Positions 1-41,191 of a stretch of 41,191 nucleotides of DNA are shown in pieces. Source of the DNA: Tyzzerella sp. An114 (lineage in GTDB: Bacteria; Bacillota; Clostridia; Lachnospirales; Anaerotignaceae). The stretch lies in NCBI RefSeq assembly GCF_002161055.1, contig NZ_NFLT01000014.1, positions 1 through 41,191 on the forward strand, in the 5' to 3' direction. The notes under the pieces are model-generated. The model was not told the origin of the DNA and made no database searches. It saw nothing but the letters and a program-made list of their open reading frames with translations. A program made the translations under genes and the position numbers. How positions within the stretch are numbered: position 1 is the first letter of the stretch; each line of letters starts with the position of its first letter.

Positions 1-161
1 TTAATTCTGCCAGAATTATTCTGACTTTTTTTCCAAAATTACTTGATGATTTCATCATCAATTTTAATTGACTTGGGTTGTATGTGTTATTCAACTGTTT
101 AGTTTTCAAAGACCAATTTCAAAAAATTAACAGAAATTCATTGTTGTTACCCTAAGTAGAA
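1..161 (-). promoter_or_regulatory. rRNA operon leader with boxA-like antitermination element
   Basis: Read on the minus strand this stretch follows two tRNA-Ser genes and carries GGTCTTTGAAAACT (positions 101-114), which resembles the boxA element found in Firmicute rRNA leaders and 16S-23S spacers. Downstream come two short inverted repeats, TGATGA/TCATCA (44-57) and AATTCTG/CAGAATT (3-17). The rRNA gene itself would lie off the left edge; whether it is 16S or 23S cannot be decided here. Confidence 0.6.
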
Positions 162-253
162 TGGCGGAGAAAGTGGGATTTGAACCCACGCGCCGCTATT
201 AACGACCTACTCCCTTTCCAGGGGAGCCCCTTCAACCACTTGGGTATTTCTCC
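162..253 (-). tRNA. tRNA-Ser (GGA anticodon)
   Basis: On the minus strand a class II tRNA folds with acceptor stem GGAGAAA/TTTCTCC, anticodon loop CTGGAAA (anticodon at 217-219), a long variable arm and the T-arm GGTTCAAATC-type sequence. The 3' CCA is encoded at 162-164. It is the second gene of a tRNA-Ser pair that leads into an rRNA unit. Confidence 0.95.
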
Positions 254-273: not shown

Positions 274-362
274 TGGCGGAGAGGGTGGGATTCGAACCCA
301 CGGCCCCTTTCGGAGTCACCGGTTTTCAAGACCGGCTCCTTAAACCACTCGGACACCTCTCC
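274..362 (-). tRNA. tRNA-Ser (UGA anticodon)
   Basis: Minus-strand class II tRNA with acceptor stem GGAGAGG/CCTCTCC, anticodon stem CCGGT/ACCGG and loop CTTGAAA giving anticodon UGA. CCA is encoded at 274-276. It is the first gene after the tandem promoters at 381-658 and lies 20 nt from the following tRNA-Ser(GGA), so the two are co-transcribed towards the rRNA gene at the left edge. Confidence 0.95.
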
Positions 363-380
363 ATATTAAGTTTTTTTGTT

Positions 381-437
381 TTCGCATTTTTTGCTGCGAA
401 CATTTGTTATTATATATTATCTTTTTTAGTTTGTCAA
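381..437 (-). promoter_or_regulatory. Stable-RNA promoter Pa plus 5' hairpin
   Basis: Minus strand: TTGACA (-35, 432-437), 17-nt spacer, TATAAT (-10, 409-414). A hairpin TTCGCA...TGCGAA (381-400) begins at about the expected transcription start. It is the closest of three tandem promoters to tRNA-Ser(UGA). Confidence 0.85.
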
Positions 438-501
438 GTACTTTTTTCGATTTTTTTAATTATTTTTTTCAATCGAATTTTGTACTATCAAAAACCTTTT
501 T

Positions 502-554
502 GCTGTTTTTCGTAACAGCTTGTTTATCTTATCATAAACATTTTAACTTGTCAA
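502..554 (-). promoter_or_regulatory. Stable-RNA promoter Pb plus 5' hairpin
   Basis: Minus strand: TTGACA (549-554), 17-nt spacer, TAAGAT (526-531), then a hairpin GCTGTT...AACAGC (502-519) starting at the predicted +1. The -35 flank AAGTACTTGACAA is shared with promoter Pa. Confidence 0.8.
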
Positions 555-606
555 GTACTTTTTTAATTTTTTATTTTTAATTTACTTGACTTTAACTTGT
601 TTATCT

Positions 607-658
607 CTGTCGTTCGTGACAGCTTGTATATAATATCACAGCATTTTTACTATGTCAA
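607..658 (-). promoter_or_regulatory. Stable-RNA promoter Pc plus 5' hairpin
   Basis: Minus strand: TTGACA (653-658), 17-nt spacer, TATTAT (630-635), then a hairpin CTGTC...GACAG (607-622). The start region TATTATATACAAGC is identical to that of the tRNA-Leu promoter at 39094-39122. Between 363 and 750 I see only these three promoters and the pepT ribosome binding site. Confidence 0.82.
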
Positions 659-38710: not shown

Positions 38711-38781
38711 AGCGGGTGATGAGAATCGAACTCACGTGTTCAGCTTGGAAGGCTGACGTTCTACCATTGAACTACACCCGC
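38711..38781 (-). tRNA. tRNA-Gly (UCC anticodon)
   Basis: Minus-strand cloverleaf with acceptor GCGGGTG/CACCCGC and anticodon loop CTTCCAA giving UCC. CCA is not encoded. It lies 13 nt before tRNA-Gly(GCC). Confidence 0.95.
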
Positions 38782-38929: not shown

Positions 38930-38971
38930 ATATTGTGTTTACTGTGCTAAGAACAAGATTTTAAAAAATCA

Positions 38972-39055
38972 TGCCCGAGACCGGAATCGAACCGGTACGG
39001 GTTTTACCCCGCAGGATTTTAAGTCCTGTGCGTCTGCCAGTTCCGCCACTCGGGC
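38972..39055 (-). tRNA. tRNA-Leu (UAA anticodon)
   Basis: Minus-strand class II tRNA with acceptor GCCCGAG/CTCGGGC, anticodon loop CTTAAAA giving UAA, and a long variable arm. CCA is not encoded. First gene of the cluster. Confidence 0.95.
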
Positions 39056-39069
39056 AAACACTTTTTTAT

Positions 39070-39122
39070 CAGCCGTTTTTCGACTGCTTGTATATAATAC
39101 CAAAGTAAAAATATTTTGTCAA
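39070..39122 (-). promoter_or_regulatory. Promoter of tRNA-Leu/Phe plus 5' hairpin
   Basis: Minus strand TTGACA (39117-39122), 17-nt spacer, TATTAT (39094-39099), then a hairpin CAGTCG/CGGCTG (39070-39086, one G-U pair) beginning at the predicted +1. The start region is the same as in promoter Pc at the other end of the window. Confidence 0.85.

Positions 39123-41087: not shown

Positions 41088-41191
<104 letters not shown>

Follow-up and report, generated by a model that had tools for sequence, protein, structure and literature searches.

Why should the transcripts of rRNA and tRNA genes begin with a hairpin? A contig of 41,191 nt from the 2.75-Mb draft genome of Tyzzerella sp. An114, analysed whole and called the window below, carries three tandem consensus promoters (Pa, Pb and Pc) ahead of two tRNA-Ser genes and a fourth promoter ahead of a tRNA-Leu gene, and each of the four is followed, at or next to its predicted start, by a short inverted repeat. 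To judge from comparisons of related sequences, these hairpins are almost certainly real and under selection. As for what they do, the reading that we prefer, with a probability of about 0.42, is that they guard the 5' ends of stable-RNA precursors against RppH and RNase J.

Four promoters and their surroundings

The sequence-only reading of the window had proposed that the four promoters each have a hairpin of 5-6 bp near the expected start, and coordinates, folding and the place of opening all agree with it (Table 1). Against the consensus TTGACA-17-TATAAT, Pc matches at 11, Pb at 10 and Pa at all 12 of the 12 bases; their stems are 5, 6 and 6 bp long and open 7, 6 and 8 bases after the -10 hexamer, and the tRNA-Leu promoter has a 6-bp stem that opens 7 bases after it. 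With the start predicted 6 bases past the -10, all four stems open at +1 to +3. The folding energies of the four start hairpins lie between -6.2 and -7.3 kcal/mol (z from -2.5 to -3.1), and the shuffles that fold as well number, out of 200, 6 for Pc, 4 for Pb, 0 for Pa and 2 for tRNA-Leu. The same reading had noticed a sequence common to Pc and the tRNA-Leu promoter; this sequence, TATTATATACAAGC, is found exactly twice in the genome, at these two sites.

Table 1. Promoters, start hairpins and stable-RNA features of the window
Feature	Position	Strand	Details
boxA-like element	96..116	-	minus-strand sequence TTGGTCTTTGAAAACTAAACA; past the tRNA-Ser genes, towards the contig end; found by eye
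tRNA-Ser(GGA)	162..253	-	second gene of the unit
tRNA-Ser(UGA)	274..362	-	first gene of the unit
Pa	381..437	-	TTGACA 437-432, TATAAT 414-409; predicted start 402 or 401
Pa stem TTCGCA/TGCGAA	400-395/386-381	-	
Pb	502..554	-	TTGACA 554-549, TAAGAT 531-526; predicted +1 G at 519
Pb stem GCTGTT/AACAGC	519-514/507-502	-	
Pc	607..658	-	TTGACA 658-653, 17-nt spacer, TATTAT 635-630; predicted +1 G at 623
Pc stem CTGTC/GACAG	622-618/611-607	-	loop 617-612
tRNA-Gly(UCC)	38711..38781	-	own promoter with 24-nt leader, without hairpin; negative example
tRNA-Phe	38929-38854	-	after tRNA-Leu(UAA)
tRNA-Leu(UAA)	38971..39056	-	
tRNA-Leu promoter	39070..39122	-	TTGACA 39122-39117, TATTAT 39099-39094; predicted +1 G at 39087
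tRNA-Leu promoter stem CAGTCG/CGGCTG	39086-39081/39075-39070	-	

What kind of unit do the tandem promoters serve? At the left end of the window lies an element that we take to be a boxA, and at the right end (41091-41191) stands the 3' end of a 16S gene, its last 101 bases. From these two ends we conclude that the contig probably lies between rRNA operons and that the tRNA-Ser genes most likely lead one of them, with its 16S expected past the contig end. The boxA of the window is about 265 nt (Pa) to about 490 nt (Pc) downstream of the hairpins, past the tRNA-Ser genes, and boxA-like elements also stand upstream of 16S in relatives with assembled operons. A 16S search of the genome gave no match at its threshold, the gene being represented by the 101-base 3' end in the window, and the rRNA promoters analysed below were for that reason taken from relatives. 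Rfam at gathering scores recognises only tRNA and 16S within the window, and its covariance models gave no match, at E up to 1, in the promoter stretch 363-720.

Start hairpins in the genome and in its relatives

Within the genome of origin, 60 tRNA genes were located and their upstream promoters picked by a fixed hexamer rule that is blind to structure, which gave 27 tRNA promoters and, once six with leaders shorter than 26 nt had been dropped, a set of 21. Here as in all other sets, some of the promoters picked by this rule are probably chance hits, and the signal is diluted to that extent. Our strict hairpin test asks for a helix of at least 4 bp, at -2 kcal/mol or better, that opens 5-9 bases after the -10. 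Twelve of the 21 promoters pass it, compared with a mean of 1.1 and a maximum of 2 in 40 dinucleotide shuffles, and when the window's own four promoters are taken out, 8 of 17 pass (shuffle mean 1.0, maximum 4 in 500). At openings 11-19 bases after the -10 the same set shows no enrichment (3; shuffle mean 1.6, maximum 5). Nine of the 21 have no hairpin by the strict test, and a stem was found in none of six leaders of 10-24 nt.

Two further leaders deserve mention in their own right. The longest stem in the list of this genome, upstream of a tRNA-Thr on the reverse strand of locus L050, is an AT-rich helix of 12 bp with one G-U pair (TAGATATGTACA/TGTATATATCTA) that opens 4 nt after the -10. 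The leader of a tRNA-Gly at locus L033, apparently a tRNA-only unit, contains CCTTTGAAAAACT, which clearly resembles boxA, and has no start hairpin.

Loci of relatives were fetched from among the matches listed, at most 30 per search, with a further 40 mRNA places and 60 tRNA places. The family tRNA set (L055-L106) went from 76 promoters to 66 on removal of near-duplicates and to 50 on leader length, with 10 rows at the level of the order and 3 from the genome itself; the class tRNA set began with 90 loci, 19 of them without a recognised tRNA start, and went from 71 to 67 to 58 in the same way. For rRNA, 21 of 26 family loci were usable and their 51 promoters came down to 33; 30 class loci, 4 with the 16S at a contig end, gave 46 and then 43; and 30 loci from other classes of the phylum, 1 without a 16S start, gave 41 and then 39. 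Control promoters of mRNA genes were chosen by the same hexamers (family 70, 65 and finally 51; all together 93 and then 79, two rows being from the genome itself).

By the strict test, start hairpins are found in 16 of the 33 rRNA promoters of family members with assembled 16S (shuffle mean 1.7, maximum 5), in 23 of the 43 of the class (mean 4.1, maximum 8) and in 23 of the 39 from other classes of the phylum (mean 5.0, maximum 13). Among tRNA promoters they are found in 20 of 58 in the class (mean 5.1, maximum 12) and, leaving out the rows from the genome itself, in 16 of 47 in family and order together (mean 4.5, maximum 10); the family alone accounts for 14 of 37, and the order alone is weak, at 2 of 10 (mean 0.7, maximum 4). 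The mRNA promoters show a small excess, 12 of 79 (mean 5.3, maximum 11). Several of them have inverted repeats over the -10 or the start that resemble repressor operators, and such repeats may account for part of that excess. Allowing bulges raises the phylum rRNA count to 29 of 39 (mean 9.2, maximum 13) and the mRNA count to 13 of 79 (mean 6.8, maximum 12). Pooled and deduplicated across sets, 109 of 238 stable-RNA promoters have the hairpin, as against the 12 of 79 for mRNA, with a Fisher P of 5.5e-7 that is too small because the rows are related by descent; the sums of 126 and 247 used further on are not deduplicated. An earlier comparison by energy alone, in which the stable-RNA sets fold better than mRNA, mixed composition with structure and was set aside for that reason, its median shuffle probabilities being uneven (0.05 for the genome itself, 0.27 for family tRNA, 0.13 for family rRNA and 0.28 for mRNA).

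Conservation of individual stems

All three tRNA-Ser promoters are present in a congener, and in them the stems are better kept than loops and background sites: 1 of 34 stem sites has changed, turning a G-C pair of Pa into G-U (position 384), compared with 6 of 20 loop sites (1 substitution, 5 deleted; P 0.008) and 40 of 156 other sites (P 0.002). Changes affect 1 of 36 sites in the hexamers, 0 of 21 between the -10 and the stem, and 8 of 51 in the spacers. The stem of Pc is unchanged, as is that of Pb, whose loop is shortened. The stem of the genome's tRNA-Phe promoter is lost in the congener, where no helix was found at any opening from 4 to 11.

In the wider set of family and order relatives, a perfect helix begins 4-10 bases past the -10 at 12 of 25 promoters adjoining tRNA-Ser (at one of the 12 it is weaker than -1 kcal/mol), and the other 13 have no helix. 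Quite different stem arms are found at the tRNA-Ser promoters of three family members (L057, L068 and L075) and of a member of another family of the order (L079). A covariation analysis of five close tRNA-Ser leaders was matched by 191 of 500 shuffles; by eye, MAFFT places one row (L056) off register. The sequence-only reading had named a lack of stem conservation in relatives as an outcome that would speak against it; what we find is enrichment in family, class and phylum. In the congener, its expectation holds for the stems of the tRNA-Ser promoters and fails for tRNA-Phe.

The hairpin of the tRNA-Leu promoter is also met elsewhere. Loop included, GTCGNAAAACGGC (window 39070-39087) begins the transcribed region, as predicted, at 17 named loci, whose labels give Clostridia or groups that we take to be part of Clostridia, and in 14 of the 17 a tRNA gene (Val, Thr, Phe, Leu, Ala or Arg) follows 28-67 nt after the -10, so that the hairpin is common to different genera and tRNA kinds. 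Two of these loci, from uncultured Lachnospiraceae (L205 and L217), share their promoter with family members G022 and G006.

Position, pairing and the sequence at the start

In these promoters the position of the hairpin is tied to the predicted start, or to the -10, and not to the gene. At 135 of the 238 promoters in the deduplicated stable-RNA set the best hairpin reaches -3 kcal/mol or lower, and 75 of these hairpins open 6, 7 or 8 bases after the -10 (34, 26 and 15), a range in which mRNA promoters show no peak (4 of 29 hairpins, 4 of 79 promoters). The median opening is 7 bases (interquartile range 6-10), whereas the distance from hairpin to gene has an interquartile range of 15-239 nt (138 rows).

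Is it the pairing that is conserved, or the sequence in which it begins? One alternative holds that conservation acts on the bases transcribed first (G, then TCG or CTG), which would serve GTP sensing and fast promoter escape, the hairpin behind RNA polymerase aiding early elongation by hindering backtracking or R-loops. The bases around the start are indeed distinctive. Among promoters with a spacer of 17, and with the start predicted, 217 of 247 for stable RNA and 35 of 93 for mRNA have a G as the sixth or seventh base past the -10; in the class sets, tRNA and rRNA alike, the start 4-mers seen most often are AGTC and GTCG; A follows directly on the -10 in 64-83% of the promoters of the stable sets and 51% of mRNA promoters; and at bases 7-10 A is rarer, with 0-16% in the five sets from relatives and 8-29% in the genome's own set compared with 37-44% in mRNA. 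Moreover, when the 3' halves were swapped between promoters, a mean of 56.4 hairpins in 238 survived (maximum 74 of 200 swaps), so a shared 5' arm explains part of them. Yet the promoters' own halves pair about twice as often, giving the 109 hairpins counted above. In the genome's own set the swap leaves a mean of 3.4 (maximum 7) where 12 are observed; the effect is weaker for the tRNA promoters of relatives, both of the class (20 observed; mean 11.7, maximum 23) and of the family (18; mean 9.7, maximum 17). The 109 stems have 69 different 5-nt arm openings, and loops change where stems do not.

Because the arms differ between promoters while the pairing is kept, structure appears to be what is selected. 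The sequence-only reading had suggested selection for structure at a constant position, and shuffles, tail swaps, mRNA controls and the congener all bear this out. The signal as a whole seems to consist of both, a structure and a shared start sequence, and we think it rather unlikely that the start sequence is the conserved part with the hairpin as its aid. From the sequences compared, stable-RNA promoters here, and many in the class and phylum, would share a consensus -35 and -10, a G as first or second base and a hairpin that opens roughly at +1 to +3, counted from the predicted start.

A proposed guard for the 5' end

Of the roles that the sequence-only reading had offered (a block to 5'-end-dependent decay, setting of the start, antitermination), we favour the first and suggest that the hairpin protects the front of the transcript. 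RppH would find too few unpaired bases next to the 5' triphosphate of the new RNA, and RNase J no single-stranded end at which to enter; the untranslated leader of a tRNA or rRNA precursor, which unlike an mRNA would have no ribosomes to shield it, could then escape decay from the front until it is processed. The start G, by analogy with the rRNA promoters of B. subtilis, may couple these promoters to the supply of GTP. According to PMC3997798, purified B. subtilis RppH needs at least 2 unpaired nucleotides at the 5' end, and RNase J1 then degrades the RNA from its 5' monophosphate; in Bacilli, the same source states, RNA can be stabilised over long distances by a hairpin placed at its 5' end or close to it. 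All rRNA promoters of B. subtilis initiate with GTP (PMC7824091). With the six sets summed (a few rows counted twice), 95 of 126 stems have a helix that opens at most 1 nt beyond the first G found at base 6-8; if transcription starts at this G, RppH would be left with too few free bases.

Several observations weigh against such a guard, the loss of the tRNA-Phe stem in the congener and the greater frequency of hairpins beside boxA included. B. subtilis RppH favours G at +2, and where the start is a T or A followed by the G, it is just this favoured base that the promoter supplies. Many promoters, furthermore, do without a hairpin, among them 9 of 21 in the genome itself, all six short leaders and 13 of 25 neighbours of tRNA-Ser.

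We would go one step further only tentatively, and consider it possible rather than probable that stable-RNA promoters of the phylum generally include the start-anchored hairpin, which would give rRNA and tRNA precursors begun with GTP a structural cap at the 5' end, and that the boxB of E. coli rrn is its remnant or cousin and so a device of the 5' end rather than an antitermination site. As rRNA and tRNA make up most of the RNA of a growing cell, a guard of this kind, if true, would explain how precursors can last in bacteria whose RNase J attacks RNA from the 5' end; the stable-RNA promoter would gain a further defining part, and the unexplained boxB hairpin of rrn leaders a reason.

Comparison with boxB and other known elements

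The hairpin could instead be the boxB of an antitermination module of the rrn type (promoter, hairpin, boxA), in which case the copies at tRNA units and at upstream promoters would have arisen from it or would work with the same elongation complex. This is suggested by the company that the hairpins keep: they are commoner beside boxA, being found at 29 of 38 rRNA promoters with a boxA within 60 nt and at 33 of 77 without one, though some of the 77 could have a boxA further downstream and a share of them were probably picked as promoters in error. Many proximal rRNA promoters have CTTTGAAAA or a similar stretch shortly downstream of the hairpin. The rrnB operon of E. coli, read from NC_000913, has the same order, a hairpin directly after P2 and then the boxA TGCTCTTTAACA; folded alone, the P2 hairpin begins 7 bases past the -10 in the minimum free energy structure and 11 in the centroid, a place close to that of the hairpins described here.

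The order hairpin, then boxA after a stable-RNA promoter is likewise that of the boxB-boxA-boxC leader after P2 in the account given in PMC10250234. Unlike boxB, however, the hairpins here can follow more than one tandem promoter of the same unit, a long way upstream of boxA, and they also accompany tRNA-only units that lack a boxA; Pb, Pc and the tRNA-Leu promoter are examples. Their arms and loops vary widely, and their position follows the start. The start of E. coli P1 lacks such a stem, folding at -1.2 kcal/mol with 78 of 200 shuffles as good. Deletion of boxB in E. coli had little effect, and its presence in rrn is called puzzling, in the passages of PMC10250234 that treat it. Since hairpins are found at rRNA promoters without a boxA within 60 nt and at tRNA-only units, antitermination as the sole role is weakened, and we regard the boxB reading as a minority possibility. 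A comparative study of rRNA antitermination leaders from several bacteria is said to exist and may mention stems before boxA.

Could the hairpin insulate the leader from misfolding with the tRNA or 16S precursor? Leaders of 26-60 nt before tRNA genes are often largely hairpin, as this would predict, but the hairpins of Pb and Pc open 157 and 260 nt upstream of the tRNA, those of rRNA promoters lie about 100-600 nt upstream of 16S, and so variable a distance to the gene makes insulation quite improbable. A repressor of stable-RNA synthesis, with the inverted repeats as its DNA operators, would account for repeats that are palindromic and overlap the start; we rejected it as very improbable because the arms (CTGTC, GCTGTT, TTCGCA, CAGTCG and CGCAA within this one genome) share no half-site. 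Chance or base composition, finally, finds some footing in the commonness of short stems and in the slight excess in mRNA controls, but for the sets as a whole it is rejected as the least probable account of all by dinucleotide shuffles, tail swaps and the congener and mRNA comparisons, even if single weak stems may be due to chance.

A 5' guard has its closest models among mRNAs. The ompA message is one that bears a stabilising stem-loop at its 5' end. Others are papA in E. coli and the 5' hairpins of B. subtilis, cited in PMC3997798 as short stabilising stems at or near the 5' end; the hairpins described here differ in belonging to a class of rRNA and tRNA promoters, where stabilisation is a prediction, and they lie within a few nucleotides of the 5' end only if transcription starts, as predicted, 6-8 nt after the -10. 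The GTP-initiating rRNA promoters of B. subtilis resemble ours in being tandem and close to consensus with a G at the start (predicted in our case), and the text of PMC7824091 contains the words 'hairpin' and 'stem-loop' 0 times. Nor do the titles and abstract openings of the literature searched, in which subscription journals are few, describe a start-anchored hairpin of stable-RNA promoters.

The stable-RNA promoters of the window have a protein-coding neighbour. Divergent from them, on the plus strand at 709-1971, lies a peptidase T gene (NCBIfam TIGR01882, E 2.7e-154), for which an in-frame ATG at 751, after GGAGG, is a likelier start than the first ATG of the open reading frame.
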